Shown here one piece after another: positions 33,476 through 64,000 of a stretch of DNA of 64,000 nucleotides. Numbering within the stretch: the first letter of the stretch is position 1; the number at the start of each line of letters is the position of its first letter. Under the pieces are notes generated by a model. It made no database searches and had not been told where the DNA came from. It worked only from the letters and a program-made list of their open reading frames with translations. Both the position numbers and the translations under genes were made by a program. Source of the DNA: a virus; the IMG/VR virus record IMGVR_UViG_3300038558_000079, positions 1 to 64,000 of that record. One strand, written 5' to 3'.

Positions 33476-33515
33476 TTACCTACTACTACCATTACTCTAG
33501 TGTGATAGTAGGTAA
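33476..33515. promoter_or_regulatory. Operator between capsid operon and XRE gene
   Basis: Perfect 10-bp inverted repeat TTACCTACTA (33476-33485) / TAGTAGGTAA (33506-33515), 20 bp apart. The right half lies between a GTGTGA -35 and a TATACT -10 (33523-33528) for the XRE gene. Fits autoregulation and control of the capsid operon. Confidence 0.55.
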
Positions 33516-33568
33516 TATGTGATATACTTATCTCTAGTACCCTAAAAATCCGGGAAAAACCTTTAAGT

Positions 33569-34277: not shown

Positions 34278-34285
34278 GTTTCAAT

Positions 34286-38366: not shown

Positions 38367-41300
38367 GCACTTATCAGTTTCACAAGCAACTAGTACATTA
38401 GGTAAATCAACGGTGTCATACTTCAGGAGCGCATCTTCAAAATTCTTAATAGAACGCCGCCGTCTCACACCATCTACGAGAGTGTTGTAAACCTCTTCAG
38501 AGATAGGTTCAAATGGCATCCTAGGGAAAGTTTGTTTACTCTCAAACCGCGCTAGTAGCGCTGCTGAGATATATCCTTCGTCATCTTGAATTGCTTGATA
38601 GATGGCATTTCCCAAAGGCTCTATCTCAGCTTCTGTGAATTCCAGAGTGCTACTCGTATTGTGCCCCACATAATGTTTCTGGACTTGCATCATGAAGTCG
38701 AATTGTGCCAATGCTGAAAAATTCCCTACATCTATATCTGCAACACCCACTAAAGTAGACCATGGTGCAGCTACAGGAATCTCTACCAACCATTCAGTAC
38801 ATCTGGGGTCATAAGGATCATCCAGTAGGTTCCCAGATTCATCACGGCTAGATTGTGAGGGGATGACAGTATACCCGTAATCGATACAAGCCAGAGCGAC
38901 CGGATTGTCTCTGGCAAAGGTAATCCGACGTATGTACCAGGTTCCCTTTGGAGGATGCCACCCTGGTGAGCTATTTGATAGTAGCGATTGTGTTCCGCTA
39001 GGTTTTACGGTAGTACACCGATTAGGAGTTTTGAGATTATGACGTTTGCAGTAATCTGCCACGTCATTCTCTACAAACTTTTTCCATTTCTTGAGACACC
39101 GTACCTCTACATCATGAAAGGTGTCACTCAAATATACACCCGTCTCAGTTTCACCCCATTTACTAGCACGTCCTGCTTCCCACCAGCGAAGCCAATCAAC
39201 ACCGAAAAGTTTCACAAAGAAATCAAAAACCCCAGTCATTCCCACCCCTACAATGGGGTCAAGTTCTCTGGATTCTCTCAACTTCTCATCAACAAATTCG
39301 TGGTGTAGTAATGAACATGCCCATAAGCTTGCTGCTTTAAAAGCACTTTTTTGTTCCTCAATATCAAAGGGGTCTATCTGCGACAGGTGGACTTCTGACA
39401 AGTTGCACAAGTTGTCTTGTAGGATTATCTCACCACATGGATTCAGGCCATAGATATTCATCCGATAATCAATATCATCATCGCTAGAAGCAAAACTTCT
39501 CAGATACTCTTTAGCATCAGTAGGATTGGAGTTATAAAGTCTCAAGAATTCTACCTTCTTTTCACTAGTATCCAGTAAATCTACATTGCTACGTGCGATC
39601 GCCTCTGGAGCATACTGTATTGCACCTTCGCCTGAATAATATTGGCTTCTCACAGCTTCAATACACTCAGCTTGTGTAGGTTTCTTATGAAATACCCTAG
39701 TGTGATTTGCCATTCTCAGGGCATCTTTATCGGGGTCAATTGTCCAATTGCCATCTGAATCTACTTTCCAAAGATTTTCCTTAATCTTGTAGGAATCGGG
39801 GTCATTATCTGAAAATTGGCGCATTCCGGCACTATTAGATACCAACAATCCTTCACACACAAATTCGTGTATGCTGGCAACTTCAATATCGAAAGTATGC
39901 GCTGTTCTTACTTCGTGTTCTATGGATTTAACCTTAACAGGCACTAAATCGGTTGTAGTTGGAACTAGTCTTTTTAATGTTGTGACAATGACCTGTTCTT
40001 GATGACCACCATACCTGTAGCGATAACTACTTACCGTGGGTTTTACCATCTCAACCGGGAACCCGTGGTCTTTAAAAGACTTAGGGGTTTCTTTTTTATG
40101 GCTTAAATAATGTAAGGAATGCGTTGTTAAGAATGCAGAAGTTGCTTCAAAGGCATTTTGCCCAACAGTTACCAATTCCCCTTCCCATTTGTTAGTGCGT
40201 TTCCTTAATGAGGAACACAAACGTGTAGTAATTGCTAGGGATGAATAAAGAGCTTGTACCTGTCTGAGAAAATCTTTATGTGTTGATGTTACTAAAACAC
40301 CTTGCGAGTGACACCCATCGGCATCGGCTAACCCAGCTAAATATGCTTCGCGAATTTCCTTAACTCCCATCAAAATACAATCGGGTATTGACATTGAAGT
40401 AAAAGGACGCTTGAAGTTGCTAAAATACTCGTTAAAGGATTTACTGTTGAACTGTAGCTCAAACGCTTTACTTTTGCGTTGTTCGGGTGTTGCAAGAGAG
40501 TAGTCATTAATCCCAAATTCACATGCCACGCTGATTAGTTGCTCAAGAATTTGTGGGTGTTGTTCAGGAATACTAAATCTGACATTTGTACCATCCGAGC
40601 CAACACATCCATTCCCATGTAAGTAGCCTAAGAAATACGCTACTTTGTTAGTTAACGCTGGTATGGTGACGGTTTTTTTGTTTCTGGTTGATTGATTTTT
40701 GAATTCTGGTAATTCAGTGGGGATACCCGGTATAGACTGAGGGACAAAAACCAAACGATCTCCTGGTTTTAAATCTTTAGCTTTTACCATTTTATACCCA
40801 CCATAAAAATCACTTAATACTGCGATTTTATGTTCTGAAGTACATTCCAAAAACCCGTCTTCTGTTTTAATTCGAGACAACGTTTGCACACCTTGATCGA
40901 AAAAGTTAGTAACTGGGTAAAAACCCTTACTCGTTAATACGCGGTCTCCAATTCGGATTTTTTGGATTGGTACTAATCCTAATTGTGTATGAACCAATGA
41001 CTCACCAGGTAAACAGCGACGCACGTTACCCGATACTATTACTAATGATGGCTCATCAATTAACAGACAACACTCAGCACTGTTCAGCTTACGTCCTACA
41101 GCACCATTGAGAATTTTTACAATACGCGGGTATAGCTGAGGTAGTAATGTCGGATTAGCAATTCCACCGAACCCCTTTAACTTTTCACCTTGTTGTCGTA
41201 TCCCGCTAATGTCTATCTCTACCTCTATATCACCATCACCAGCTAGCAGGTTATCAGTTGCTAATTGGAGAAGGCTTAGATAGCTATCACACCAACCTTC

Positions 41301-41807
41301 ACGAGAATCACCAACTAGAAATAGGTACTTCCTGTCACCTACTACTTTTACAAAAGTCCTTTCAGTTCTAGCTTTAGAACTGCCAAACTCCCCTGTGACT
41401 TTCACATTAATAGTGTTGAGAACCGGCGGTAACTTCTCTATATATCGAGGTTCAATAACAGCGCCAGTACCACACCCTTGCATGGTAAGATTCATCATTA
41501 ACTCGAAAGCTTTTAGGGTATCTAGGTTAGATGATGAGCAATTATAAGCGCCATAGAAGTTTTTTGGAACCTTTACCCAGTCAGTTCCTCCTACCCAGAG
41601 CCAACGACCCGATGGTAAACTCTTAAGAGCTAGTGCGTTACTGTAAAGGAGGTGCTTTTCGTCATCAGTTAACTTGCCTAATTCGGCAATTCCGTGAGTG
41701 ATTCTCTCACAGGTATCTTGCCAATTTTCGCGGGTGTTATCTGGTTTAAGTCTTGAATAGGTACGCGAGAAGACCGGAGCCGCGCATGGTGCATTATTGG
41801 GAAACAT
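38358..41807 (-). CDS. nrdJ: Class II (B12-dependent) ribonucleoside-triphosphate reductase with intein
   Basis: 1149 residues including an intein (C265-N658). Extein features: YNCSSSNLDT with C90, NPCGEII active-site loop, and C-terminal redox pair C1142/C1147 (VACETDKCLI). The spliced sequence rejoins SGNVRR to SAGMRQFSDNDPD. It reduces ribonucleotides to deoxyribonucleotides using adenosylcobalamin, feeding phage DNA synthesis. No separate small subunit is needed. Overlaps the upstream 41794-42363 gene by 14 bp. Confidence 0.9.
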   Translation of the reverse strand: MFPNNAPCAAPVFSRTYSRLKPDNTRENWQDTCERITHGIAELGKLTDDEKHLLYSNALALKSLPSGRWLWVGGTDWVKVPKNFYGAYNCSSSNLDTLKAFELMMNLTMQGCGTGAVIEPRYIEKLPPVLNTINVKVTGEFGSSKARTERTFVKVVGDRKYLFLVGDSREGWCDSYLSLLQLATDNLLAGDGDIEVEIDISGIRQQGEKLKGFGGIANPTLLPQLYPRIVKILNGAVGRKLNSAECCLLIDEPSLVIVSGNVRRCLPGESLVHTQLGLVPIQKIRIGDRVLTSKGFYPVTNFFDQGVQTLSRIKTEDGFLECTSEHKIAVLSDFYGGYKMVKAKDLKPGDRLVFVPQSIPGIPTELPEFKNQSTRNKKTVTIPALTNKVAYFLGYLHGNGCVGSDGTNVRFSIPEQHPQILEQLISVACEFGINDYSLATPEQRKSKAFELQFNSKSFNEYFSNFKRPFTSMSIPDCILMGVKEIREAYLAGLADADGCHSQGVLVTSTHKDFLRQVQALYSSLAITTRLCSSLRKRTNKWEGELVTVGQNAFEATSAFLTTHSLHYLSHKKETPKSFKDHGFPVEMVKPTVSSYRYRYGGHQEQVIVTTLKRLVPTTTDLVPVKVKSIEHEVRTAHTFDIEVASIHEFVCEGLLVSNSAGMRQFSDNDPDSYKIKENLWKVDSDGNWTIDPDKDALRMANHTRVFHKKPTQAECIEAVRSQYYSGEGAIQYAPEAIARSNVDLLDTSEKKVEFLRLYNSNPTDAKEYLRSFASSDDDIDYRMNIYGLNPCGEIILQDNLCNLSEVHLSQIDPFDIEEQKSAFKAASLWACSLLHHEFVDEKLRESRELDPIVGVGMTGVFDFFVKLFGVDWLRWWEAGRASKWGETETGVYLSDTFHDVEVRCLKKWKKFVENDVADYCKRHNLKTPNRCTTVKPSGTQSLLSNSSPGWHPPKGTWYIRRITFARDNPVALACIDYGYTVIPSQSSRDESGNLLDDPYDPRCTEWLVEIPVAAPWSTLVGVADIDVGNFSALAQFDFMMQVQKHYVGHNTSSTLEFTEAEIEPLGNAIYQAIQDDEGYISAALLARFESKQTFPRMPFEPISEEVYNTLVDGVRRRRSIKNFEDALLKYDTVDLPNVLVACETDKCLI
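39834..41015 (-). other. Intein with LAGLIDADG endonuclease in nrdJ
   Basis: 394 residues, from C265 (CLPGESLVHT, block A) to N658 (CEGLLVSN, block G), with S659 as the next residue. Two LAGLIDADG motifs: YFLGYLHGNGC (about 391-401) and YLAGLADADGC (about 489-499), both with an acidic or polar catalytic position (N in the first, D in the second). The usual penultimate His is Ser. Full size and no frameshift, so splicing and homing may work. Confidence 0.9.
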
Positions 41808-47431: not shown

Positions 47432-50400
47432 TTAAATACCGTGTGTAGCTCGATATGATGGCGAATTTAACATTCTGTCAGATATGTACTTAGCACCTTG
47501 TTCAGCACCCTGTTGAGCCGCTTTCCGAGCCAAGTCTTCACCCTGAGATTTAGTCAGGTACTCAACTCCATTAATGACTTGTGTCTCCAGTTTGACATTT
47601 ATATCTTTAGGACGTGAAGCATTCTCTATAACCTTATCTGCACTTCCCCCATACTCGGTAGTTTTGGGGACATAGCCTACCATGCCACCATCATTGAAGT
47701 TTAGGATGTCAACACCACCCAGCTTGTCAAGATTCTGAGTTTGGGCTAAATTGAGTACACGCTCACCATGGGTTAGAGCCGCGATCGCTACCCCACGCCC
47801 CCCATTAAGTGATTTCTCGCGATCGATAGCATCAATTATCCCACCCTGAGCATAGTTACCTACTATGCCACCATTCCAGAAAAAACTACCTAGTAAAGAG
47901 CTAGCAATACCTACAATTCCCCCTAAACCACCACCGCCAACCATCCCACTAACACTAGCAAGAATACGTCCTATTCCGCCCCCACCACTGTTCTTACCAT
48001 CACCTGAGAATAAACTACCAATCCCACTTACGATACTTCCAAATCCACCTTTACCACTGAAAAAACTACCTAGTGCATTAGTGATAGGACTAAGAGCATC
48101 GGGTGCGCTTTTGATGATTCCTACGGGGACTGGATTCGCGCTATCAACTTTACCAGTGAATCCTGAGAATGTAGACGCTAGGAAGCTTGTAGTGGAATCT
48201 TCTTTGCCACCAAACATACTACCTAGAGTGCCATTATTCAATCCCCCGAAAGTATTACCATTTACTACATTTACATACACAGGTAACACCGGGGTAGTAC
48301 CCAGTTCACTACCGCCGTCTAATAGCGATAAAGGGTTAGTATCCCCACTATCGCCTTGTTCAAACATCCCACCTTGCCCTTCATTCTTGTTACCACCCAG
48401 TAAACCACCAAACAATTTCTCCACTAGGTAGTTACTAGCTATCTCAGCGACTGAACCTAGTATGGAGTCCATTAATCCGTTGAATAACTCCTCTATGCTT
48501 TGACCACCCTTAATGATGCCAGCAAAGAATCCCTTCAATCCTGTTTGTACAGTATCTATAACTGGCTTGAAGGCGTTAAAGTTATCCTTAACAGTGTCAA
48601 GTTTAACCTGGTTAATCTGCTCTAAGTTCTGTCTTAACTTGTCAGCTTCTATAGCACCAACTTGTGTTGTTCTGATGAATTCTTCGAGTTCTATCTTTTG
48701 CCCTCTATAAGCACTTTGTTGTTGTAATATTGCACTGTCACGTTGTAATGTGCGTGCTTTATTGGTCATACCACGGTTAGAGTAGAAGCTAGCTTGAGTC
48801 TCTAAGAGTTCTACCTGTGAGCCTGATACACGTTGCGATATCGTCTCTGTTCTTTGAGCTAGCGCTTTATCAAATTCCCCCTTAAGGTTATCAAGTGTTA
48901 AGTTGTTAAGTTCTCGAATTCTTAACTCTAATTCTGCTATTTCTTCTTGAGACTTACCAGTTGAATTGGCGAATTCCTTCATGTCGAGTATCTGTTTCTC
49001 AACACTAATCTCAAGTTCTTTCTTGTCAACCTCAAATTTTAACTTTATCGGGTCACCTTGTTGTAGTCCCAAATTTATCGCTTGTGTAGTAGTATCAACG
49101 ATTTGCTTCTGATATTGTAACTCCTGTTCTTTAATGCTTAGAATAACCTTTGATTGTGATATCTGACTAGCAAAAGCAGTCTGTTGTGCTTGTGCATTTA
49201 TGTTCTGAATTTTAACGTCATATTCACTCTGTTTCTCAGCATTAAGTTTTGTAATTTCTTCAGGCGTTCTTTTCCCTTCAAAACCCGCTTGTTCAATTGC
49301 AGCTAACTCTTGTGCTAATTGCAGTTCAGCTTCGCGCAATGCAACTCGCTTCTCTAATTCCCCGATAGCATTATTGGCTAATTCGGGTGATAGTGGGTTA
49401 GTCTGTGCAAGTGTCTTTAATTGTTCAATCCGGACTTTATCATTAGCAATCTCAGCTTGTACCAATTCCTGTCTGGCTTCCCTATCCCGTGCTTCACTCT
49501 CACGTAGGAAAGCTAACTTAGCATTTTCAGTTTTCTGTTTAAGGGTAACGTCTAATATCTTCTTACGCTCTCCAATTTCAGCACGTAATCTGTCAGCCTC
49601 TTCTTTGGTATACTCCTTAGCTTTTTCCTTGTCTTGGATTCCCTTAAGTTGTTTCTCAAGATTTAACTGTTCTTCTCTAGCACTTATAAGCGCTTCTAAG
49701 TCTGGTATGCCCTTCACATCGGGTGAAAATGGCGCTGTACTCTTTAGTTGTTGCAATTGGTCTAATTTAGCCTTCAAGGTGTCGATACTCGCATTCTCGA
49801 TATCAAAGCTAGCCTGTTGCTTGCGTGCCTTTTCTTCAGCAGCGAAGCGGTCATCTAGTAGCTTTTTAGATTCCTCACGCCCCTTGCGTACATTTTCTAA
49901 CCCTATGGTTAATTTCTTGAGTTGGTCTTCACCCTCTGTAACCGCACGATTGAGAATATTCTTACCGTCATCTCCCAAAACACCCGTGGTTAGTGCGGTT
50001 CGTAATTGCTCTCTAAGGTTCTCTTTAATAGTCGGGTCATCTATGAGCTTCTGTACCTTCTCACGCATCTCAGGAGATACAACACCTCCTTTACTGAGAA
50101 GTACCCTAGCAGTACCTATCTGTGATTCTATCGCTCTCTTTTGTTCAACAATACTATTTTCTAGTTCTGTGTACTTAGTCTCTAATTGTCGTTGTTCTTG
50201 TTGTCGTTTCTGTTCATTATCTAAGGCTCCTTTGTATTCCAAGTTAGTATCAGTGACTTGATTACTCAAGCTGCTAACCTTAATCCCGTTTTGACGTAAC
50301 TCTCTCTCTAAATCTAGAAAGGCTTTATTGCTAGCTCGTAATGCATTGGCGGTATTTTGAGCGGCTTCATTACTAGCTTTCTGACGTGCTAATTCTACTT

Positions 50401-53400
50401 GACGATCGCGTTGTTGTTCGGCACGTCCGGTGACATCTGATATAGCAGTATTGCCTCTAGTCGCTATACTACCTGGTGTCCAGACGGTTGGGACTGGTGT
50501 GTTTGCTACTTGAGGTATTTGTACATTTGCGGTATTATTAGGAGTGTTTTTCTGTTGTGTAGGTAATCCCCCCTTCAGATAACTCACTAATTGATCTGCT
50601 AAACCCGGATTCCGCTTCCACCCATCATCTACACCTTGCCAATTTGAACCACCAAGTTTATTTGCTTGCATCCATCGAATAAGATCAGCGCCATCTTTAA
50701 TGCGACCCGACTGAACAGCCTCGATAACTTTACTACCGTAATCGCCAATCCCTTTCTGTGAATTAGGTAAACGACGTTCACCAGCTAATATTTGCCCAAA
50801 GAAGTTCTGGTATTTCTCAGGAGTATTGATTATTTCTTTGTGATAGGCATTATTAAATTGTCCAAACCCTTGCATATTGTTGCCTGTACCACCTTTATAG
50901 GTGTAGAAAGCACGGCGGTTTGTACCCTTCTCAAATGCTTCAGATCCACCTATACCTAATGCAAGCACTAACCTCCCACGACCTTCAGCAGTAGACGGGT
51001 CAAAATATTTATTCTGACTTAATTGACCACCCAATTCGTTCAGAGCCTCGTACCCTTTGCCTAATTTTGGAGCGCCACCTTGATTGACAACCCTCTGGGG
51101 TATATTGGGTGAGACAGAAGTATTTCTCCCCTGTAGCTGAGAAACAACATCATTACTTGCAGATGTAATTTGTGAACGGTTTCGTGTACTGTCGCCTTGG
51201 TTTTTATAAGCAGTAATAATTACTTGCCTACCGTTAATATTGGCAAGTCCTACATTTCCCGTAACCCGGCTATTATTACCTATTTTTCCCCCTGATTCAC
51301 CACTAAAGCCAAAATTCCTAGTTTGTCCTAAAGCCGCCCTTGCAGTATCCGCAGCACCACCTTGATTAATTTGCAAATTTCTCATTGCTTTTGTTACATC
51401 GGCTGGTGTAGACGTGTTGCCAAAAGCATTAGTAGCACCAGGGATACTCAAATAATTCCGAATTTGAGTCCCTGTAAAACCTCGTTTTTGTGCTTGTGCT
51501 GTAGCCGCTTCTGTACCACCCAGTATGCCAACTAAAGCGTTAAAACTTGTGTTATCAGAATCACGAAGCATACGAGTCATTAAATCTCGTATAGAAACCT
51601 TCTGACCGGCTTGTATTGAGGAGCCTTCAGCTACCTGGTTTTTCGCAATAGTCACACTTTGGTCTAATGATACTTTTCCCTCTTTAATTGCAGCATGTAT
51701 CAAATCGGCGGCAATTAACTTTATAGTTGACGCTGGTGAACTTGGGGCTTGATTTGCATTATATGTACCTAATATCTCTCCACTTTTTACATCTTGTACC
51801 AAGAGAGAGTTTAGCCCATATTGACTTGCTATTTGTGAAGCATTAATGCCTTGGCGTTGAGATTGATTCTGTTTTACTTGTGTTGCACTTCCACCGTGAT
51901 TATGCCCATCACCAGGATGATGTTGTTCAATTTGCCCTTTTTGTGCTGAACTTAAACCTCTACCATTTCTACCTGCTAAGAACTCAGTAGGGTTAACATT
52001 CTTCCCATTAATCCATGTTTCGTAGTGTAAATGCGCCCCCGTACCAATCCCCGTTGAGCCAACTTTACCAATCTTGTCACCAGCATTTAATTTTTGTCCT
52101 TCCACCACATCATAAGCCGACAAGTGGAAAAACTTATGCTCAATTTTACGACCATGCTCATCGATTGACTCGACTACAACATATTTACCAGCGCCACCAG
52201 CCTGATACTTGACACCAGTAACTACCCCTGCCATGGGTGATACCACTTGTGTCCCTTCACCATACCCGTAATCTTGCCCACGGTGCATTCGTGTTTGTCC
52301 AGTTACTGGATGCCGTCTCATCCCCCAAGGGCTAGTTTTTCTACTTTCGGCTTGTGCTGCGGTAACACCTGCTATCGGAAAGACTGGTTGGCTTGCGTTC
52401 CCTACGGGTGGTTTTTCACCTATACCTAAAGCATTCTGAACAAAACCAATACCTTGCTGTACAACATTACCAGCAGTCTGCATTGCACCTTGTCTAAAGC
52501 TAACGACGCTCTGGGTTACACTTTCAAGTTGTTGACCCCAGCTATTAAATATTTGTCCAATGATATTTAGAATGGGGATATTGTTAGCAAAAGTGCTAAA
52601 CCAATCCACTGTATTCTTAATAATTTCCTGAATGCTAAGAGGTAGTGAATCCAGGGCTACCTTAAGCTCGTTCTCAATCACTCCACCAACATTACTGATC
52701 TCAGTGCCCCAATTAATAGTAGCTGCTGTCACATTGCCAGTTGCCTCTAAAGATGCGAATAGACTATCATTTGTAGCAATAACGGCATCATTATTACTAT
52801 TGATACTATCGGTGTTAGTCTCGATCGCAAAACCTAAATCAGAAGCTGTAAAAGTGGTATTAAGTAGTTCTGAGCCTAATCCCTGAGTTGCATATATCCC
52901 ATCTTCTGTAGTAGCTACTGTCTGCTGGATAGTATCGCCAAAGTCCAGACTACCTAACGTTACATCTTGAAATGCAGACGTTAGGTCATTTGTAGCACTC
53001 TCACTATCCTTTATAGTGTCTTTAGCCTCTAGTAAGCCATTATTGAAAGCCTTAGTGATATCAATAAATTTATTATCTATCCCTATCTTACTCAAGTCTA
53101 ACTCTATCGGGATTGCTGGGATATCAATACTACCTTTAGCTGAAATACCAGGTAATTGTCGGCGTAATTCCTCACCCTGTCTTAGGGAATCTTCAAAAGC
53201 ATTATTAGCCTGTAATGCAGCACTTCCTACATCAAACTGTTTATCGGCGGCTTCTGAGAGTTGTTGGATACTTTCTATTACCGAATCTGCAAATTGAGAT
53301 ACTATATTATCCTGAAACCCAGAAATAGAAGTTTTGATATCGGTAGCATAAGACTGTATTTTTAACTGGCTAGTTTGACGTTGTGCCTCAAGACTAGATT

Positions 53401-56400
53401 CTGCAAACTGTCTAGATGCACTACGGTAATATTCTTCTATTTGTTTGTTTAATTCGACTAACTTTTGATTAAATTCATACTTACCTTGTTCTACTCCAGC
53501 TTGTAGGTTAGAAATTTCTACAGAACGCTCTTGAAGTGCTGCATACTGGTCAATAACATACTTGTCATTAACTCTCTCACCTGCTTTTTCTGATATAGTC
53601 TTAAGTTCAGCGCGTCCGGTATTCTCAGTAATACCATAGGCTTGTAGTGTATTCTGAGCATCCTTATTCTGCAACAGCGCTTTAGTCTGTGCTTGTGCAT
53701 CAAGTAAACGCTTAATTTTTGCCTCTTGCTGTTGAATATCAAGTTCGCTTAAACCAAATTGCAACTCCCCCTGAGTCTTGGAATTAGTGTATAAGCTGGA
53801 CTTTAAAGTATTTCCTGCAACAGTAGCCTTATCTTCAGCATCAGCTAATTTATCAACTACACCTTGTATGTTTTTCTGCATTAATGAGAAAGCATTAACA
53901 GATTCGCCAACAGCGCGATTAAATTTATCTTGTGCTTTCTGTGCTGACGTTAGATCGCTTTCTAGTCCTGCTAGTACATTCTTATATTGCGCCTGATTCC
54001 TACCAGGTTCATTGGCTAATTTTTGATATTTCTCAATCTCCTTTTTGAGCATATCAACATTAGTCTGCATATTGGACTGTAATATTCCAATAGGTTTAGA
54101 TATTTTTTCTCTCGCCTCTAGTATTTTTGTTTGTTCATCATCAATAACTTTAAGTCCAGCCTTATCTTGAGGATTTATAGCTACTAATGCCGCGCGTCGT
54201 GTCTGTATCTGTCTGAGTTGGTCATCATACTGCTTTAATTGTCCCAACTCTCTAACACCTTGCCCCTTGGTTCCTAAGAGGCTTAATGCTTCTGAAGTTG
54301 TAGCATTAACACCTAAGCTTAAGTCAGATGTGGCATTAATGTTATCTCCCAACTTCTTGTCTTCATAGGTTGAACCCACTCTACCACCTGACAGTTTTTT
54401 AAGTAAGTTTGCAGGCGACTCGATTAAACCTGTAACTGCTTTCCCGGTTCCAAATCTTAACTTATCAAACCAGTTAGCATCAGCTTTAATTTCCTTGGGT
54501 AATAACGCACCTATCCCCATTGCATCTAGCAAGGATTCATCGCGTACTAGCTTAGTAGCTTTAAATTTTTCGGTTTCCCCTCTACTTTCTGCTAGCGCTT
54601 CCCTGTACTTTTGCAAACTCTCAGTAGCGGTATCGGCAAAGTTCCTAGAATCTCCAGAGGCATCCTTGAAAGCAGCACTAATGCCTTCAAATACTTTCAT
54701 CCCTACTTCGATTACTACGAACATAGTTAGCATAGGTGCGAGCGCTGACAGCAATGCCCTAGCACCCGATGCTAATCCTATAAATCCCGCAACACCATTG
54801 ATTAGCGCCGCTTTACCAAATGCCCTAACTCCAATAGCACCTCTAGTAAAATTAGCACCAATGTTAGAAATTCCATTTTTCTGTAGGCTTAGTAGTCCAC
54901 CATTTAACGCTGACAATCCACCTTTCGCATTATCCAGCATAGCAACGCCGAAGTTCTTAGCACTTGACAGGACATTACTAGCACCCGATCTTAGAGATTG
55001 TACCGGGTTAGCTCTAATGTTCTGTAACGTGTCTCCTATCCCGTCTACTAGTTGTGTGGCCTTAAGTTTGTTATCACCATTTCCTAGTATTTTCTGGAAT
55101 GTTCCCATAGCGGCACTTGCTGCACTCGCAACACCCGGAATTTTCATTAACGCAGCGGTTAACGCTCCAAAAGATTGGAATAGGTTAACTCCAGCCATTA
55201 CAGCGAGCGCACGAAAAACACCTAGCAGAAAATCTGCGTTTTCAGTCACAAACTTGATAGCTCCGCTACCTAGTGCTAATAGCAAATTTTTGATTGGTAA
55301 CAGTGTCTTGCCAATTGTTGCTTGCATCTGAAATAACGCATTATTGAAATTTATTAATGCAGACACTGAACTATTAGCCGCTCCTTTGACACCCATCGCA
55401 GTTTCGGCGCTTAGTTGTTGAGCAAACTTAGGTAGAAAATCTTCTGACAGTAACTTACCTTGACTCATCATCTTGTCTAGAGTTTGTGTTGTTACACCTA
55501 TCGCTCTAGCTGCAATGTTGAACGCACCAGGTAAAACTTCTCCCAATTGTTGTCTTAATTCCTCAGCGCTTACCTTGCCTTTTCCAGCCATTTGTTGGAC
55601 AGCAGCAAAAACTCTACTCTGTTGTTCTGAATTCAAGTCATAAACAGTGCTAGCTTGTGATACACCACTAAATATCTTCTGTGTCTGACTTTCCAGTGCG
55701 GTGTCCCGCGTTGCAGCCCCTAATGAAACATATCCTTCCATTGAGGACTTCATGTCGGTTCCCAAACGCGCCGTTTCCCCCCTAACAAATGCCAAGCTAT
55801 TAGCAGCCTCTTGAGCATTGTTGCTGATAAATAGGAATCTACGCTCTAAAGATTCCATGGCTATAGCGGCTTCAATTGATGCGGGTGCAATGCTGGTTAT
55901 TATATTCTGGAAAAATTGTACCCCTTTAAATGCCAGGAAACCACCTACTAAACCTTTAAGACCATCTATCAAAATGCCAGCAATACCGCTTCCTTTAAAT
56001 AGCGCATCAAAGAATGTATTTACTTGTGGTACTGCAACATTGAGAGACTTGAAGATATCTTGAGTTGCAATATTTAACTCTTGTAACTCTTGGGTTTCTT
56101 CAGGGGTTATCGTAGTCTTGCGAGTTAATTCTAAGGCTCTATTATTGTTAGCTACTAATTTATCTTTATAGACTAATAATCTATCCGATTCTTCTTTGTC
56201 CCCTCTTAATTCCGCTTCATTAGCCGATACTACCAGGTTAGCAATTAAGGACGGCGTGTGCATCTTTAATATCTCTGTCTGTTTCCTAACCCTAGCTGCT
56301 ATGCCACCAAACAAATCTGCTAGTGCTACCCCAACAGAATTAGTAAATTTGTTTCCTGCGTTTTGTGTAACCTGCTGTACTTTCTCAGGACTAATAAGAG

Positions 56401-59400
56401 GAGAAGTATTAACTACATTACCTTTTAATTCTTGTTTGTCTAAAAGTTTTGCATTTTCCAAATAAACTTTTAGGCTTTCTAATTCGTGTTGTGACAGTTC
56501 TAACTCATCACCAGACTGTATGCTTGCTTCGGCTTTTGCCAGAAGTTGCTGGTACTCTACCTGTCTTTCCTCAAGGTATTTTTGAGCCGCTTCAAATTGT
56601 TGCTTCTCATGCTCATCGAAGCTAGCCATAGCTTTATCTATATCGCTAGTTGTTCGATTTGCTGAGGCATTATAAACATGAGACATAGCAGCAGCAGCAT
56701 TGGCATTGGCTTTATTACTCTGGCTTATACTGCGTCTGTTCTCTAGGTTGCCTACAATACCTTCTACTTTCTGTTTGCCAGTTTCTACCATTTTTTCTGT
56801 AAAACTTGGCACAGTATTTACAGCGTTAATACCTTTATTAAACCCTTCTACTACAAAGCGCCCTAAACGTTCAAATACCTTAGATGGACTTTGTATCTCC
56901 AGTTCTTTTTTAGCCGACTTTGTAACACCTTGCGCTAACTCAATAGATGCAAGTTCAGCACTTGGTATCGACTTTTCAATACCTTGACTTAACCCTGTTC
57001 CTAAGTTCTCTAACCCATAACTTTGAGCAAATTTAGCATCCCAATCATCGATGTCTCCAGTTTGCACATCAGGAGTAATATCTTCTAAGTCAATATTTGC
57101 CGCTTCCTGTGCAAGTAAGCTATCCCAGTCATAATCATCTATTTGTTTTGCATAATCATCAACAACTACCTTTGTCCCTTGTTCTATTGATTCCGCTATC
57201 TTATCAGGGACAAAGCTTAAATCCTTGGATAACTTGGGGTTTATAGGAGTTTCTTTAATTACCTGTTGATGGATCTCAGGTACTTTAATTTCAGGAATTT
57301 GCTCAACTATCGGGGATTCAATCTCAGGTATTTTAATCTCAGGCAATTCAAGCGAATCAGTCCCAATATCACCGAGGACAAAACCCTCTATATTTTTAAT
57401 AATACCACTTAGCTGTAAGCTTGCACCTTTAAGATATTTCTTAACACTATCTTCTAAGTCTCGACTCAATAATTCCTGAATTGTTTGGTAGTCATCTTGG
57501 ATTTCCTCAAAGCTAATCTGAGGAATTTCCTCTTGTTTGATAGCATTCAACGCACCCCGCGCCGCTGTAATTCTACCCTGTAGATGCGGCTTAAGCGCAT
57601 CAGGTGTGGTAACTAACTGATCGGTCTTAGAGATGATACTTTTTTGGTGTGGTGTAAGTTGTGGAATTGTTGACCTGAGTTTTTTGAGGTCAACGTTGTT
57701 AACTAATCTTGCCGCTATTTGTTCCTTAGTACCACTTGAACCAACACCATGGCTTTTGGCTATATTTTTTAGCTCATCCTTGCTGGTGTAACTACCTGTA
57801 AGTTGCTTCAGTAAATCCTCACGGCTGCCACCTAATAACTCGGTGTGTACCTTGTTAGCAAATTGGCTAGCACTGAATGTTGTCTTTTCAATTAGAACCT
57901 GTAAGTCTTTATATAATTTATCCAGTTCATCTTGTGGCAAAATATCTATATTTTTAAGTCTCTCTAGATAAGGCTCAAAAATCTTATATAGATTATCAAA
58001 TTTTGCTTCTAATAATTTCCCAGTCCCAGATGTGTCATAGGTAGCGTTCTTATTGTTCTCTATTAGTTGTTTATATTGCTCTACTTGTATTTTGCCTAAA
58101 TCGTTTAAGAGTTTACCTCCTCCGCTACCTGCTAGTTGCCCAATATTGCGGAGGCTTGTCTTTCTTTGGATATTAGATATTATTTTCTCTCTATTTCTGT
58201 TCGTAAAAACGTAAGCGTCTTGTTCTATTTCTCTAGAAAATGCTTCTCGTTCTGTATCCCCCTTAAAATTACTTGCCGATCCTTCCACCCTTCGCGCCAA
58301 CTTTGGATCTAGTTCGTAATCTTCTACCGTCGGCTTGAGTAATTTACGCGCCGATTTTAGCTCTTGGAATAAATCTATTTTACCAAAATCGCTTTGCATC
58401 CCATGTGTAAGTTCATGGATCAATGTCTCTAAATTTTCTGGTGTTGCATTCCCCTTAATGAGTTGTGCCAATACATCTTTCTGTACTTTTAAAACGTTAT
58501 TCTCGCTAGAATAAAACCCCGTTGCCTTTATCCCCTTCTTTTTATAATCTTCAATTTCTTCATCCGAAAAAGCCTTCAAGGTAGGAATTTGCTCAGGACT
58601 TATACTAATTCCAGCTATAGCCGCAACTTCATCTATAACATCCTGATACTGTTTAGGTTGTTTTTTGACTTTCTTGGTTGTACCACTAGTTTTTCCCCCC
58701 CGCTCTAGTGCTTTAATAGCATCATCAGCTTGCTTCTCATACACCGTAACCTGAGCATTCATGGCTTCCATTAACTTCAATGCAGAAGCCATTTCTTCTT
58801 TACTGCTAAAGTCCAAAGTCCTGAGTTTAGCAAATAATTTCTTATATTCCGTCCCTATATTTTTAACATTTCCAGTAGAAATAGTTTTCTGAATTTCCGC
58901 TATATTATTCCTACCTCCAGAATTCTTAACTACAGTTGCTTCTGCTAAGGGCACTGATGCTTCTGCTCTCTGTATGAAAGCTAACTCTTGTTTGTTTAAC
59001 CTTTCAAGATCGGCCTTCACATTAGTGATTAAATTTTCTAATTCTTTCCTGTTAAGAACTTCTTTTTCGATAAGAGCTTTTGCTGCTAAGATGGTATCAT
59101 CATCAGAATCAGATAGTGCATTCTTAAGTGCCTCTTGATATTTCAATACTTTCTTATTAGAGGCTTCCAAGACTTTCTCTGCTTTAGTAAGTTTGGTGTT
59201 CAAGTCTTCACGTTGCTTACCAACAGCTTCTTTCTTCTCACTTATAGCGAGGGTGCGTAATATTCTAGCACCTTCTAATCCTTTAGCACCTTTTACACCG
59301 ACTAGATCTAAAAGATGTTCTAATTTTTGTTTCTCTCCACCTAACTTTTCTACCCTCTCCCTGACAGCCTCTATCTGCTTTTCTACTTCGCCTAACTGTT

Positions 59401-60985
59401 TCGTTTTAGCTTCTAAGTTAGCACCAAGCATTCCCTCTTTTTCCGCATCAGTGCTACCTCTGAATTGCGTTAATTTTGCCTGATTTTCAGATAGTACATA
59501 TTTGCTCGCATCTTCACGCTTACCTAAAGACTTTAAATCTTCAATCGCAAAAAGCTTCTGATTACGTTCTGTTTCATTTAACCCCTCAGTGACTTCCTTT
59601 TCCTCGAAAGCGGCTATCTTTTTGGCAGTCAACGCTTTCTGTTTCTGTATCTCAATTAAGCCTGCTTTCTGAGTTTGAATGGCATTTTTAAAATATTCTT
59701 CGCCACGCTCAGTTACACTTTTCCCCATATAGTCAGCTAAATTCCGCTCTAACTGACTTCTGTAAACTTCTAATCCCGCTAACTCATCCTCACTTTGTTT
59801 TCTCTGGACTTCATTTAACCCTTCTCTACTAAGTGATTCCTCATACTCTATTCCTAATTCTTTAGCGGCGGCTTCATTACGTCCGGTTTTAGTAACTCTC
59901 TTGCGTCCGCTTAATAATCTTTTTTCAATCTCAATTTGGTCTTTGCCGATAATAGATTGGACACGATCTATTGATTCATCTATTGTCTTTGCCAGACTTG
60001 ATTCGCTATACCCTTTCTGTATAGCCCGTACTACGGGTGCTTTTGTTATTGCCTCTCTTATCCCTGGAACAATTCGCTCGAAAATTGAACGTCCTACTAA
60101 ATCCAACGAGCCAATCTTAGAAGATAGTGCAGACTCTATAGAATCTGTTAATCCTTCAGAAAACTTAGAAGTAATCATTCTTCCAAAGTTTTCTGACGCT
60201 CCTACAAATATGTTGTCAAAAATACCTCTATTCTTGGTTCTTATTTTCGATGCGGTTGATTGAACTCCTGAACTGTCACTCTTAGTTGCTGAAGTGGTTG
60301 TAGTTGTTCCTGGAGTGCTAGTGTAACTTGGTAATGTAGCTGTTCCCGAAGTGTTACCCGGACTTGGTAGTGTGGCTGTTCCCTGTGGTATGTGCTGCGA
60401 TAACCCTGGTGTTACTGGCGATCGCGATACAGTAGGCGTTAAGAAGCTTGTAGAACCTACTCGGTTGCTACTTTTTTGCTGTGAATTAGTTATATTCTTA
60501 ACAACATTACTAATTTTATCAGATGCGGTATCAAAACTTTTCTCAATACCGTCTTTTAAGGTTACACTTATCTTCTCCCCTTCGCTTTGCTTTATTTCTG
60601 CCTTTACCTTTACCTTTGTCTCTAATTGTTCTGACAATCCTACAATCTGTTTTTTAAAGCTAGCCTCATTAATTGGATCCGTTGTAGTTCTGATTCTTAA
60701 TGGATTCTTCTCAAGCCACGCATTAACATCTTTAACATGTGTACGTTTGGATTCTATATGCTTATTGAGTTGAGTTAATGGGACATCATCAACTTTAACT
60801 TTAACTATTAAGTCTTGGCTTAGTGCTTTTTGAAGACGTTGCCGTTCCTGTGCAATATTGGCATTATCAAAACTAACCCCAAGCTTGACAACTGGAGTTT
60901 TCACACCTGACAACGACCCCAGTCCCTGATAGAAACCACTGAGATCTAACTTTGTGCCAATATCAACTGAGGCAATCCTAACCAT
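47432..60985 (-). CDS. Giant tape measure protein with several enzyme domains
   Basis: 4517 residues, very large for this class. Order: N-terminal coils; zinc-peptidase motif HELTH at 857-861; SAP-like segment (about 1062-1095, SKDELKNIAKSHGVGSSGT); tape measure core (about 1700-1880, AGKGKVSAEELRQQLGEVLPGA); hydrophobic stretch (about 1950-2090); M23 peptidase (about 2885-2998) with H2901, D2905, H2985, H2987; serine beta-lactamase-like domain with S3086-x2-K3089, SDN 3143-3145 and K3234-I-G; lysozyme-like region (about 3326-3475, GIGGSEAFEKGTNRRAFYTY); long coils; Gly-rich end. It sets tail length, and the enzyme parts could open the cell wall. The start codon lies in a hairpin. Confidence 0.85.
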   Translation of the reverse strand: MVRIASVDIGTKLDLSGFYQGLGSLSGVKTPVVKLGVSFDNANIAQERQRLQKALSQDLIVKVKVDDVPLTQLNKHIESKRTHVKDVNAWLEKNPLRIRTTTDPINEASFKKQIVGLSEQLETKVKVKAEIKQSEGEKISVTLKDGIEKSFDTASDKISNVVKNITNSQQKSSNRVGSTSFLTPTVSRSPVTPGLSQHIPQGTATLPSPGNTSGTATLPSYTSTPGTTTTTSATKSDSSGVQSTASKIRTKNRGIFDNIFVGASENFGRMITSKFSEGLTDSIESALSSKIGSLDLVGRSIFERIVPGIREAITKAPVVRAIQKGYSESSLAKTIDESIDRVQSIIGKDQIEIEKRLLSGRKRVTKTGRNEAAAKELGIEYEESLSREGLNEVQRKQSEDELAGLEVYRSQLERNLADYMGKSVTERGEEYFKNAIQTQKAGLIEIQKQKALTAKKIAAFEEKEVTEGLNETERNQKLFAIEDLKSLGKREDASKYVLSENQAKLTQFRGSTDAEKEGMLGANLEAKTKQLGEVEKQIEAVRERVEKLGGEKQKLEHLLDLVGVKGAKGLEGARILRTLAISEKKEAVGKQREDLNTKLTKAEKVLEASNKKVLKYQEALKNALSDSDDDTILAAKALIEKEVLNRKELENLITNVKADLERLNKQELAFIQRAEASVPLAEATVVKNSGGRNNIAEIQKTISTGNVKNIGTEYKKLFAKLRTLDFSSKEEMASALKLMEAMNAQVTVYEKQADDAIKALERGGKTSGTTKKVKKQPKQYQDVIDEVAAIAGISISPEQIPTLKAFSDEEIEDYKKKGIKATGFYSSENNVLKVQKDVLAQLIKGNATPENLETLIHELTHGMQSDFGKIDLFQELKSARKLLKPTVEDYELDPKLARRVEGSASNFKGDTEREAFSREIEQDAYVFTNRNREKIISNIQRKTSLRNIGQLAGSGGGKLLNDLGKIQVEQYKQLIENNKNATYDTSGTGKLLEAKFDNLYKIFEPYLERLKNIDILPQDELDKLYKDLQVLIEKTTFSASQFANKVHTELLGGSREDLLKQLTGSYTSKDELKNIAKSHGVGSSGTKEQIAARLVNNVDLKKLRSTIPQLTPHQKSIISKTDQLVTTPDALKPHLQGRITAARGALNAIKQEEIPQISFEEIQDDYQTIQELLSRDLEDSVKKYLKGASLQLSGIIKNIEGFVLGDIGTDSLELPEIKIPEIESPIVEQIPEIKVPEIHQQVIKETPINPKLSKDLSFVPDKIAESIEQGTKVVVDDYAKQIDDYDWDSLLAQEAANIDLEDITPDVQTGDIDDWDAKFAQSYGLENLGTGLSQGIEKSIPSAELASIELAQGVTKSAKKELEIQSPSKVFERLGRFVVEGFNKGINAVNTVPSFTEKMVETGKQKVEGIVGNLENRRSISQSNKANANAAAAMSHVYNASANRTTSDIDKAMASFDEHEKQQFEAAQKYLEERQVEYQQLLAKAEASIQSGDELELSQHELESLKVYLENAKLLDKQELKGNVVNTSPLISPEKVQQVTQNAGNKFTNSVGVALADLFGGIAARVRKQTEILKMHTPSLIANLVVSANEAELRGDKEESDRLLVYKDKLVANNNRALELTRKTTITPEETQELQELNIATQDIFKSLNVAVPQVNTFFDALFKGSGIAGILIDGLKGLVGGFLAFKGVQFFQNIITSIAPASIEAAIAMESLERRFLFISNNAQEAANSLAFVRGETARLGTDMKSSMEGYVSLGAATRDTALESQTQKIFSGVSQASTVYDLNSEQQSRVFAAVQQMAGKGKVSAEELRQQLGEVLPGAFNIAARAIGVTTQTLDKMMSQGKLLSEDFLPKFAQQLSAETAMGVKGAANSSVSALINFNNALFQMQATIGKTLLPIKNLLLALGSGAIKFVTENADFLLGVFRALAVMAGVNLFQSFGALTAALMKIPGVASAASAAMGTFQKILGNGDNKLKATQLVDGIGDTLQNIRANPVQSLRSGASNVLSSAKNFGVAMLDNAKGGLSALNGGLLSLQKNGISNIGANFTRGAIGVRAFGKAALINGVAGFIGLASGARALLSALAPMLTMFVVIEVGMKVFEGISAAFKDASGDSRNFADTATESLQKYREALAESRGETEKFKATKLVRDESLLDAMGIGALLPKEIKADANWFDKLRFGTGKAVTGLIESPANLLKKLSGGRVGSTYEDKKLGDNINATSDLSLGVNATTSEALSLLGTKGQGVRELGQLKQYDDQLRQIQTRRAALVAINPQDKAGLKVIDDEQTKILEAREKISKPIGILQSNMQTNVDMLKKEIEKYQKLANEPGRNQAQYKNVLAGLESDLTSAQKAQDKFNRAVGESVNAFSLMQKNIQGVVDKLADAEDKATVAGNTLKSSLYTNSKTQGELQFGLSELDIQQQEAKIKRLLDAQAQTKALLQNKDAQNTLQAYGITENTGRAELKTISEKAGERVNDKYVIDQYAALQERSVEISNLQAGVEQGKYEFNQKLVELNKQIEEYYRSASRQFAESSLEAQRQTSQLKIQSYATDIKTSISGFQDNIVSQFADSVIESIQQLSEAADKQFDVGSAALQANNAFEDSLRQGEELRRQLPGISAKGSIDIPAIPIELDLSKIGIDNKFIDITKAFNNGLLEAKDTIKDSESATNDLTSAFQDVTLGSLDFGDTIQQTVATTEDGIYATQGLGSELLNTTFTASDLGFAIETNTDSINSNNDAVIATNDSLFASLEATGNVTAATINWGTEISNVGGVIENELKVALDSLPLSIQEIIKNTVDWFSTFANNIPILNIIGQIFNSWGQQLESVTQSVVSFRQGAMQTAGNVVQQGIGFVQNALGIGEKPPVGNASQPVFPIAGVTAAQAESRKTSPWGMRRHPVTGQTRMHRGQDYGYGEGTQVVSPMAGVVTGVKYQAGGAGKYVVVESIDEHGRKIEHKFFHLSAYDVVEGQKLNAGDKIGKVGSTGIGTGAHLHYETWINGKNVNPTEFLAGRNGRGLSSAQKGQIEQHHPGDGHNHGGSATQVKQNQSQRQGINASQIASQYGLNSLLVQDVKSGEILGTYNANQAPSSPASTIKLIAADLIHAAIKEGKVSLDQSVTIAKNQVAEGSSIQAGQKVSIRDLMTRMLRDSDNTSFNALVGILGGTEAATAQAQKRGFTGTQIRNYLSIPGATNAFGNTSTPADVTKAMRNLQINQGGAADTARAALGQTRNFGFSGESGGKIGNNSRVTGNVGLANINGRQVIITAYKNQGDSTRNRSQITSASNDVVSQLQGRNTSVSPNIPQRVVNQGGAPKLGKGYEALNELGGQLSQNKYFDPSTAEGRGRLVLALGIGGSEAFEKGTNRRAFYTYKGGTGNNMQGFGQFNNAYHKEIINTPEKYQNFFGQILAGERRLPNSQKGIGDYGSKVIEAVQSGRIKDGADLIRWMQANKLGGSNWQGVDDGWKRNPGLADQLVSYLKGGLPTQQKNTPNNTANVQIPQVANTPVPTVWTPGSIATRGNTAISDVTGRAEQQRDRQVELARQKASNEAAQNTANALRASNKAFLDLERELRQNGIKVSSLSNQVTDTNLEYKGALDNEQKRQQEQRQLETKYTELENSIVEQKRAIESQIGTARVLLSKGGVVSPEMREKVQKLIDDPTIKENLREQLRTALTTGVLGDDGKNILNRAVTEGEDQLKKLTIGLENVRKGREESKKLLDDRFAAEEKARKQQASFDIENASIDTLKAKLDQLQQLKSTAPFSPDVKGIPDLEALISAREEQLNLEKQLKGIQDKEKAKEYTKEEADRLRAEIGERKKILDVTLKQKTENAKLAFLRESEARDREARQELVQAEIANDKVRIEQLKTLAQTNPLSPELANNAIGELEKRVALREAELQLAQELAAIEQAGFEGKRTPEEITKLNAEKQSEYDVKIQNINAQAQQTAFASQISQSKVILSIKEQELQYQKQIVDTTTQAINLGLQQGDPIKLKFEVDKKELEISVEKQILDMKEFANSTGKSQEEIAELELRIRELNNLTLDNLKGEFDKALAQRTETISQRVSGSQVELLETQASFYSNRGMTNKARTLQRDSAILQQQSAYRGQKIELEEFIRTTQVGAIEADKLRQNLEQINQVKLDTVKDNFNAFKPVIDTVQTGLKGFFAGIIKGGQSIEELFNGLMDSILGSVAEIASNYLVEKLFGGLLGGNKNEGQGGMFEQGDSGDTNPLSLLDGGSELGTTPVLPVYVNVVNGNTFGGLNNGTLGSMFGGKEDSTTSFLASTFSGFTGKVDSANPVPVGIIKSAPDALSPITNALGSFFSGKGGFGSIVSGIGSLFSGDGKNSGGGGIGRILASVSGMVGGGGLGGIVGIASSLLGSFFWNGGIVGNYAQGGIIDAIDREKSLNGGRGVAIAALTHGERVLNLAQTQNLDKLGGVDILNFNDGGMVGYVPKTTEYGGSADKVIENASRPKDINVKLETQVINGVEYLTKSQGEDLARKAAQQGAEQGAKYISDRMLNSPSYRATHGI

Positions 60986-61608: not shown

Positions 61609-64000
61609 CTACCCTTTGATGTATTTCATACCCTTCGCTGCCACATCCTGACGTAATAACTTGAAGGCTAATTTACCGTCGGATAAGAGTGCATCGTCTT
61701 CACATCTTTGGTAATTTGCAAGTAGGTTTTGAATATAAAGGTATGGTGTGTCCACCGCTTTAAATTCTGGGGTGTATTCCTCACCCGATGCGTAGGTTTC
61801 TCGAATTCGTAGCATAGCAATAGTAACCCGTACCATATCTTCAAGTTCTATCTCTGTGAGATTGGTGTTACAGGCTTTGCAGAAAAACTGCAAAGTATTA
61901 GGATTTCCAAGGTCGTTCAATGGGAGTATCTCGTGCAGGGTGATCACCTCTTGAAAGTCGTCAAATACCTGCTTAGGTGTTAAAGTCTCATAATTATTAA
62001 GACCGCTGAGAATAGTCTCTAGAGTACGTCCTGTTGTAGATGCAATAGGTAAAGTATCGAGTGTCATTTGTGGTGTTGAGATTGCTAAGGTTTCTTCATC
62101 CATTATATCATCATTAGATTCTGTTACTACATCAGGTGTCTGATTGTATTTCCGGTCATATCCCGCTAATAAATTCTGACGTGTTACATCAGATAAGAAT
62201 TCAGAGGAAAAGCTGTATGTGTACTGCTTCCCCACTTTCTGAGACGTGAAACTATACCCCAACTTCTCCAATATCCAGGTAGCTAACTTCGCGGCTCTTA
62301 CATCGTTAGTGCCTGCTATTATCTTGGGGAAATTATCGTTAAATTCTGTAGCTAATTCATCCTTTATCTTCGCTGATACCTTATTGACTTTTAGTGCCCA
62401 TTCCTTTAATCCCGGCGTTGAGCTACTAAAAGTTAAGTTAGGATTCTCTAAATCCAATATAGACTCCAATTCCTGAATCTTGAGATACTTCGTTAGTGCA
62501 TGTACTTTATATCCCAGTAGCTTCACATCCTGTAAGCAAAATTCTAATCCTTCCTGGTAGTTTTTAGCATAGCGTTTTAACTTGCTGACATCTAGAGCAG
62601 GTACTAAGTGTGGGTTCTTGTAGAGAAACCAGAGTAAGTTAGCGTGAATTACTTCCCGGTAATTATATTTCCAGTGATACACCATGGATACAGTGCATTC
62701 TGGTTCTAGTATCCCGGTAGAAATGAGTATTTTTGATTTTGTTCCTTGTCGTTGTATTTCCGGGTCACAAGCCATCTGTTCAGCCGAATGAGCCGTTGCA
62801 TAGTCCGTAAAGATTGCCTCTACCGCTGCAACTTTCTCACATGATTCGAGCCGTGTCACTTCTATGGTTTCTTTGATTACTTCGTTGTACGAATTTTTGA
62901 ACCCGTCTGCAAATGTTATTTCATGACCTGCGGCTCTTAATTCGGCTACCATCACGTCGTAAAAATTAGCCCGTGCCCAATTCTGGTTCGCTACAAGTTC
63001 ATAATAGTACCAGCTATGCTTGGGCGACAAGGTAGGATAATCATCCCCTTCAAGGAATTTTTCCAATAACCCTATGAGCGCTTTACCATTAATGTAATCG
63101 GGGTTATCAGTCGCTGTGGAATCTGTAAAATTATTGGCTGTATGTTGCCGCAGCACTTCCTTAATAAGTTGGTCTGCTATCTCTGTTAAGTTGGACTCCT
63201 GACGCTTCTTATCAGCAATCACACCTTCTACCGTAACCGCCCCATGATACTTGCCCTTACTGGCGTATATATTCCAATCAGTGAGATGACGATCGCGTGC
63301 CATCTGCTGGAGGGATTCAATAGGAGTATTAACCGCAAAAAATAGACCATAAGCCTTCTGGAAATACACAGCATCAATCGATAACCCATTAGCTAATGTA
63401 GGCGAAAACATGAACAGATCCGGGGTCTTAGTAAGAATAGACTGATTTAAGTTATTCATCACGCTGCGTGCTTCATCGGTGCGTGATGAGTCGGAATCTA
63501 GCCGGATAACGCTCTTAGGTGTTTTTCCCTGAGACACTAAGGAATCCTGTGCTAGTGATTCTAGAGCCTGTAGATTTTCCTTACTATCTGATGCTACCAA
63601 CGCGGGTACATCAGACTTTACCAGTTGTGCTACTGTTGTCTCGAAAAAACTTGCCTTCTCCTTACCTGTTAATACCACATTTCTCTTTTTGGGTTTTGTG
63701 GTATTAATAAGTACTTTTACAGGTGTGTCTGGCATGAACTGTAGGACATACTTTATCGTACTTTTCCTCAATGTCGCATCACTAAGAATACAGCCGCCAT
63801 TATTGGCATTGGCTAATGCTAATAACTTACAGAGTGCAGATATATTCTCAGCACGCTTGAGACGATGTGTCTCTCCAGTGAGTAAGTGAATCAAACCTGA
63901 TTCACATTCATCTAGTACTAAATGGAAAGGTTGGTCGGTGTTGAATGTTGAGAGTTTGTGAAGTGAATCGTAACACAATCCAATCCGCTTAACACGTCCT
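61609..64000 (-). CDS. CyRepA1-like plasmid replication protein, 5' end cut by window
   Basis: At least 796 residues; the frame is open to the right edge (upstream of TTG 63978 it reads DVLSG), so the start is outside. GLCYDSLHKL, LVLDECESGLIHLLTG (Walker B-like DE), CILSDATLRKSTIKYV, MFSPTLANGLSIDAVYF and QQMARDRH (arginine finger) follow the helicase part of cyanobacterial CyRepA1 plasmid replication proteins. These act as initiator/helicase for plasmid replication. The C-terminal 500 residues are helical and less clear. Its presence beside phage genes is the main reason to call this a phage-plasmid. Confidence 0.65.
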   Translation of the reverse strand, partial: GRVKRIGLCYDSLHKLSTFNTDQPFHLVLDECESGLIHLLTGETHRLKRAENISALCKLLALANANNGGCILSDATLRKSTIKYVLQFMPDTPVKVLINTTKPKKRNVVLTGKEKASFFETTVAQLVKSDVPALVASDSKENLQALESLAQDSLVSQGKTPKSVIRLDSDSSRTDEARSVMNNLNQSILTKTPDLFMFSPTLANGLSIDAVYFQKAYGLFFAVNTPIESLQQMARDRHLTDWNIYASKGKYHGAVTVEGVIADKKRQESNLTEIADQLIKEVLRQHTANNFTDSTATDNPDYINGKALIGLLEKFLEGDDYPTLSPKHSWYYYELVANQNWARANFYDVMVAELRAAGHEITFADGFKNSYNEVIKETIEVTRLESCEKVAAVEAIFTDYATAHSAEQMACDPEIQRQGTKSKILISTGILEPECTVSMVYHWKYNYREVIHANLLWFLYKNPHLVPALDVSKLKRYAKNYQEGLEFCLQDVKLLGYKVHALTKYLKIQELESILDLENPNLTFSSSTPGLKEWALKVNKVSAKIKDELATEFNDNFPKIIAGTNDVRAAKLATWILEKLGYSFTSQKVGKQYTYSFSSEFLSDVTRQNLLAGYDRKYNQTPDVVTESNDDIMDEETLAISTPQMTLDTLPIASTTGRTLETILSGLNNYETLTPKQVFDDFQEVITLHEILPLNDLGNPNTLQFFCKACNTNLTEIELEDMVRVTIAMLRIRETYASGEEYTPEFKAVDTPYLYIQNLLANYQRCEDDALLSDGKLAFKLLRQDVAAKGMKYIKG

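Follow-up and report, generated by a model that had tools for sequence, protein, structure and literature searches.

A tape measure protein of a presumed cyanophage carries a predicted PBP-A-like serine peptidase domain beside an M23 peptidase

Introduction

What a beta-lactamase-like serine domain might be doing inside a phage tape measure protein is the question raised by the locus described here. It lies in a 64,000-nucleotide stretch of DNA (the window), positions 1 to 64,000 of the 90,554-base virus contig IMGVR_UViG_3300038558_000079. A first-pass annotation of this stretch, made from the sequence alone, had described a protein of 4517 residues combining a tape measure core with a HELTH motif, an M23 peptidase, serine motifs in class A beta-lactamase order and a lysozyme-like region, and had considered the combination very unusual.

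Most of the tail-associated lysins described so far are glycosidases, amidases or endopeptidases of the metallo or cysteine type. Lysins within tape measures are already known, and minor tail proteins of mycobacteriophages carry beta-lactamase-like DD-carboxypeptidase motifs and have been detected in virions (Omega gp39, PMC3706429). Our search of the open-licence literature retrieved no tape measure with a beta-lactamase-type domain. As far as our searches go, what is new is the predicted occurrence, within tape measures, of a serine DD-peptidase domain of the PBP-A type, together with the phage-specific group that such domains form, their shuffling with other wall enzymes and a family of N-terminal zincins.

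Results

The tape measure gene and its core features are as follows.

47432..60985, minus strand: tape measure protein gene, 4517 aa, single open frame with TMP_3, phrog_2335 and TIGR02675 matches
55310..55876, minus strand: tape measure core (TMP_3), residues 1704-1892, Pfam 1.9e-21, above cut-off
57698..57784, minus strand: SAP-like motif, residues 1068-1096, PF18953 4.7e-5 and PF02037 0.0075, both under the curated cut-off

The gene runs from an ATG through one 13.5 kb open frame with no internal stop, on the minus strand, a detail absent from the first-pass annotation. The occurrence of a TMP core profile above cut-off in a very long ORF identifies the product as a tape measure, as had been claimed; phrog_2335 matches it at 7e-48, and PHROGs and NCBIfam concur with Pfam on both the tape measure and the M23 assignments. 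The principal matches are well beyond chance (PF13354 2.5e-23, TMP_3 1.9e-21, M23 1.2e-20), and all the motifs recorded earlier were found in place: HELTH at 857-861, H2901xxxD2905, HLH at 2985-2987, STIK at 3086-3089, SDN at 3143-3145 and KIG at 3234-3236.

The neighbourhood contains terminase, portal, major head, TipJ-like tail, DnaE and ribonucleotide reductase genes. A long distance separates the tape measure gene from the head-tail cluster (20747-34741), and the DnaE and ribonucleotide reductase genes are situated in between. Directly upstream of it, a CyRepA1-like plasmid replication gene (61609-63978, minus strand) runs past the window (L131:710-4783); its match of 183 bits is slightly under the curated cut-off of 200, and relatives of its product are encoded by cyanobacterial plasmids, among them those of Nostoc, Planktothrix and Leptolyngbya. 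The presence of this gene raises the possibility of plasmid-like replication of the phage. Because of these plasmid relatives and of the relatives of the serine domain described below, we take the host to be a cyanobacterium, probably a filamentous one.

The features of the serine domain are listed below; the 37 aligned phage rows represent about eight distinct lineages sharing 28-49% identity, many rows being near-identical.

51131..51862, minus strand: PBP-A/class A beta-lactamase-fold serine domain, residues 3042-3285, from PF13354, PBP-A (7e-19), AlphaFold and Foldseek
51719..51730, minus strand: S3086-T-I-K3089, catalytic SxxK, S and K invariant in 37 phage and 80 other rows
51551..51559, minus strand: S3143-D-N3145, SxN motif, S and N invariant
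51449..51451, minus strand: L3179, position of Glu166 in class A enzymes and of Leu158 in PBP-A, Leu in 37/37 phage rows
51278..51286, minus strand: K3234-I-G, equivalent of the KTG box, Lys in 35/37 phage rows

Residues 3061-3259 match PF13354 (Beta-lactamase2) with 83 bits against a curated cut-off of 22. AlphaFold, run with 41 aligned sequences, modelled the whole domain with a pLDDT of ~97, and Foldseek retrieved class A beta-lactamases and PBP-A at a probability of 1.00, with PBP-A (0.78) having the highest target TM-score of the rows listed. Taken together, the profile and the structural comparison assign a class A beta-lactamase-like fold to the domain, so that the motif order noticed earlier (SxxK, SDN, KxG) is accompanied by the topology on which the first-pass annotation had staked its reading of residues 3050-3290. 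By homology to the active site of PBP-A, Ser3086, Lys3089 and Lys3234 would share one pocket.

The fold by itself could fit a true class A beta-lactamase shielding the phage or its host from beta-lactams, but several observations make such a function very improbable. The omega-loop glutamate was looked for as ExxLN in the window domain and is missing, in agreement with the first-pass annotation; Leu3179 occupies the Glu166 position, as leucine does in every phage row, which excludes class A membership by this residue. The domain is also embedded in tail proteins together with wall hydrolases, and its best profile relative is a DD-peptidase. A PDB search with the window domain alone matched DD-carboxypeptidases and class A enzymes, whereas a profile built from eight phage domains placed cyanobacterial PBP-A (2j7v) first at 7e-19, while true class A beta-lactamases scored no better than 4e-13. 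By profile, the closest relative of solved structure is thus the DD-peptidase PBP-A rather than a beta-lactamase, and since the omega-loop glutamate is missing, stem peptides appear a more likely target than beta-lactams.

PBP-A (Tll2115) of Thermosynechococcus elongatus (PDB 2j7v/2j8y) resembles the phage domain in fold, in its SxxK, SxN and KxG residues and in carrying leucine in place of Glu166. Its active site comprises Ser61-Lys64, Ser122-Asn124, Leu158 and Lys219-Asp222, and the enzyme acts as DD-carboxypeptidase and DD-endopeptidase with a preference for amidated muropeptides (PMC11189452), lacking the Glu166 general base (PMC7514474). S61, K64, S122, N124, L158 and K219 align with S3086, K3089, S3143, N3145, L3179 and K3234, respectively. 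The phage domain therefore shares SxxK, SxN and the leucine with PBP-A, but not the KTG box, where the lysine is kept and the threonine is not (KIG in the window, KID in a few relatives).

This substitution, and the fact that the equivalent of K234 is neither aligned nor conserved in a relative from a Microcoleus phage, could indicate that the domain is catalytically weak or inactive and binds stem peptides, either anchoring the emerging tape or positioning the M23 domain; the acyl-enzymes formed in such folds may, moreover, be long-lived. We consider a binding role unlikely, since the serine, lysine, serine and asparagine of the active site are invariant over the eight or so divergent lineages, which is more than selection for binding alone requires. 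The Glu166-position leucine is conserved to the same extent.

Two further regions flank the serine domain.

51989..52291, minus strand: M23 peptidase domain, residues 2899-2999, with H2901, D2905, H2985 and H2987, Pfam 1.2e-20 and motif check
50666..51130, minus strand: residues 3286-3440, the stretch formerly called lysozyme-like, no support

The M23 domain is intact, as had been stated, with the HxxxD and HxH zinc ligands inside the profile match. The lysozyme-like assignment gained no support: residues 3286-3440 gave no Pfam, PDB, phage or cyanobacterial match, the AlphaFold model has low pLDDT for the most part, and no lysozyme-family profile or fold match was obtained that would indicate a lysozyme or lytic transglycosylase. 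The stretch occupies the place of a lysozyme-type domain found in two related proteins (L004 and L005), with a poor alignment at 16% identity.

Relatives of the serine domain were not detected by the DNA-level search or by single-protein pattern searches, and emerged only with the family profile, which located the domain in 31 IMG/VR contigs, in several lineages of giant tape measures as well as in baseplate proteins. The viral fold library added one further relative (A0A510E7V3, 41% identity), while a plasmid search at a strict limit gave no match. Among annotated phage records only Microcoleus phage My-WqHQDG (OR578706) carries a relative. The combination is thus rare in annotated phages, as the first-pass annotation had supposed, but recurrent in cyanobacterial ones.

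The partners of the serine domain vary among these proteins. In L003, TMP_3 and the serine domain occur together with a Tlde1-like domain and a GH24 lysozyme. L004 combines TMP_3, a YkuD/Tlde1-like domain, a partial M23, the serine domain and a lysozyme-type domain, and a contig of a Tolypothrix brevis MAG (L034) has the same sequence position as L004. The 3630-aa protein of L005 contains a zincin, TMP_3, a weak M23, the serine domain and a lysozyme-type domain. In L006 and about 25 close contigs (L009-L033), the ORFs reach 5329 aa and contain TMP_3, the serine domain and a lambda R-type lysozyme, which for L116 matches PDB 3d3d at 6e-29. Baseplate proteins carry the domain in L007, with VanY within 784 aa, and in L008. 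The lysozyme-type domain follows the serine domain in L004 and L005 but precedes it in L114-L116, indicating that modules have been shuffled around the serine domain. It is scarcely conceivable that the window protein results from an assembly artefact or from chance motifs: although no isolate stands behind this metagenomic contig, the gene is a single open frame, similar fusions occur in independent contigs and in the Tolypothrix MAG, and the order M23-serine domain is common to the window, L004 and L005.

Weak matches in faecal 'Bacteriophage sp.' scaffolds were set aside as separate S11/DacA-like proteins of ~460 aa with no tail fusion (domain call by eye). The L007 baseplate protein (L007:8366-10720) unites a VanY zinc DD-carboxypeptidase with the serine DD-peptidase-like domain, so that a single protein has two enzymes of unrelated type directed at one kind of bond. 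A Tlde1/YkuD-like L,D-transpeptidase-type domain with a GSAGCI motif occurs in tape measures at residues 859-1035 in L003 and 513-687 in L004.

Among cellular genomes, 356 of the 386 cyanobacterial ones examined contain a match to the serine domain. Except for the Tolypothrix phage contig, the cellular homologues among the matches listed are separate ORFs of ~300-700 aa. In a quick tree of 87 rows with several long branches, the phage domains cluster together (SH-aLRT 100), set apart by a long branch from the cellular PBP-As, and so fall outside the PBP-A clade. Such a topology points to an old phage-specific lineage rather than to a domain captured recently from a host.

The N-terminal part of the protein contains another putative enzyme.

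58106..58708, minus strand: zincin domain, residues 760-960, with HELTH at 857-861 and E921 as third-ligand candidate, homologous copies and a weak DUF6782 match

A HELTH motif taken alone could arise by chance. In L005, however, HEAQH lies at the aligned place, and four more copies were found in giant or long ORFs from 2 of the 386 cyanobacterial genomes (two in L121 and two in L122), a 3414-aa ORF of L121 aligning with the window tape core too. The alignment of the six divergent copies keeps H, E, H, a glycine, a downstream glutamate and an alanine invariant, a gluzincin-like pattern which supports the earlier reading of HELTH as a zinc peptidase motif and assigns the region to what is, judged by sequence, a genuine zincin family. 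The best relative matches DUF6782 'putative metallopeptidase' at 1.2e-6; the window copy itself does not belong there by profile (0.071, 12.8 bits against a curated cut-off of 27). The structural model, whose alignment left out the genome-derived copies, is of low confidence, with a pLDDT of 57, and its ten best PDB matches are minigluzincins/selecases, all with E >= 0.001. Searching viral contigs for zincin relatives returned none, and the PDB sequence search gave no significant match.

The region ahead of the tape core is variable in other giant tape measures. Three related proteins (L114:981-16970, minus strand; L115:5562-15428, plus strand; L116:5260-15567, plus strand) have near-common C-terminal halves. 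They share the start and the C-terminal half at 67-90% identity and differ in ~1000-3000 residues ahead of the core, where L114 is kinase-like (1.7e-4) and L115 cutinase-like (2.5e-4), both under Pfam cut-offs, so that the group includes at least three N-terminal types. The zincin and the SAP-like motif of the window protein occupy the corresponding region. These pre-core regions are possibly exchangeable cargo, and the hypervariable location of the zincin agrees with a cargo module no less well than with the processing of the tape measure proposed earlier.

Discussion

The domains, the fold of the serine domain, its catalytic residues and its recurrence are established here. The activity, substrate, exposure and timing that we propose for them are inferred. 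Our data make it probable that the window encodes the tape measure of a long-tailed phage equipped with a peptidoglycan-opening cassette that includes a serine DD-peptidase. At the start of infection, the tape would exit the tail tube, bringing its C-proximal enzyme block into the periplasm. There the M23 domain may act as a zinc endopeptidase cutting peptide cross-links, while the serine domain, as a DD-carboxypeptidase or DD-endopeptidase, could attack D-Ala-D-Ala or D-Ala-mDAP stem-peptide bonds through a Ser3086 acyl-enzyme. The joint action of both domains would locally loosen the cross-linked wall and allow the passage of DNA. The zincin would be a separate module that either acts as a protease in maturation or is ejected as an enzyme.

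Wall penetration at infection appears the likeliest role because of the domain content and of two precedents. The hydrolase of the TM4 tape measure (motif 3) assists DNA injection into resting cells (PMC1796659). TM4 thus shares with the window a peptidoglycan hydrolase within a tape measure, though motif 3 is a single small motif of another enzyme type. In Anabaena phage A-1(L), the baseplate hub gp15 contains several wall-acting domains, two of them active on Anabaena cells, and at the baseplate the spike is contacted by the C-terminal tape measure helices (PMC10966104). Such an arrangement suggests, by analogy, that C-proximal tape measure domains should emerge first. Like the window protein, gp15, a virion protein, is a single cyanophage protein with several wall-acting domains, but it is a hub rather than a tape measure and no PBP-fold domain has been reported in it. 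Support also comes from the recurrence of the serine domain in tape measure and baseplate proteins beside M23, lambda-type lysozyme, GH24, VanY and Tlde1-like partners. Against the cassette stand the KIG box and its occasional KID variant, the unaligned lysine of the Microcoleus protein and the position of the phage rows outside the PBP-A clade. A folded 25-kDa domain is likewise hard to fit in the tail tube and would have to be unfolded or located at the tip.

Tape measure proteins are synthesized late, at the same time as lysis proteins, which could suit a multi-domain region serving virion assembly or lysis from within instead of entry. This seems quite improbable, since the fusion partners, tape measure and baseplate proteins, are located at the point of entry, and we know of no separate assembly function for such hydrolases.

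Compared with the closest systems, PBP-A is a host enzyme and a separate protein with a KTG box, whereas the phage domains constitute their own tree group and are built into tail proteins. The mycobacteriophage proteins of the Omega gp39 type also hold a PBP/beta-lactamase-fold domain within a tail protein, theirs having been detected in virions; they are minor tail proteins from phages of actinobacterial hosts, while the window protein is a tape measure, and the fold resemblance between the two domains is weak (E about 1e-3). The Microcoleus phage protein (WOL31302.1) bears the same serine domain (31% identical) and is encoded in a structural cluster that also includes amidase and peptidase genes. 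There the domain terminates a 653-aa baseplate-type protein, whose gene precedes one amidase and two peptidase genes, so that, unlike in the window, the other hydrolases are encoded separately.

If the proposed role is correct, the phage-specific group of PBP-A-like serine DD-peptidases carried by tape measure and baseplate proteins would add one more class of enzymes to those that breach the wall of cyanobacteria; penicillin should then acylate the serine domain and might slow infection. A broader and more doubtful reading, which we offer tentatively, is that giant cyanophage tape measures are modular delivery vehicles, with a rather constant C-terminal half whose wall enzymes are shuffled around the phage-specific serine DD-peptidase to open the wall, and with exchangeable pre-core cargo. 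This cargo (zincin, kinase-like, cutinase-like hydrolase and SAP-like modules) might, on the same tentative footing, be ejected into the host alongside the DNA. The variable, domain-bearing N-terminal regions provide an opening to ask whether tape measures deliver enzymes into the host.

Other observations concern the phage record itself. The ribonucleotide reductase gene (38358-41807, minus strand) encodes an adenosylcobalamin-dependent enzyme that is apparently intein-split, as judged from a profile match in two stretches and CLPGES...SN junctions seen by eye. A thymidylate synthase-like region is fused with a DUF4346 pterin-binding domain at L132:7871-9331 (plus strand). Three TnpB/IS605 OrfB-type genes are also present in the record, at 18011-19348 (plus strand), L132:4093-5295 (minus strand) and L132:9902-11131 (plus strand).
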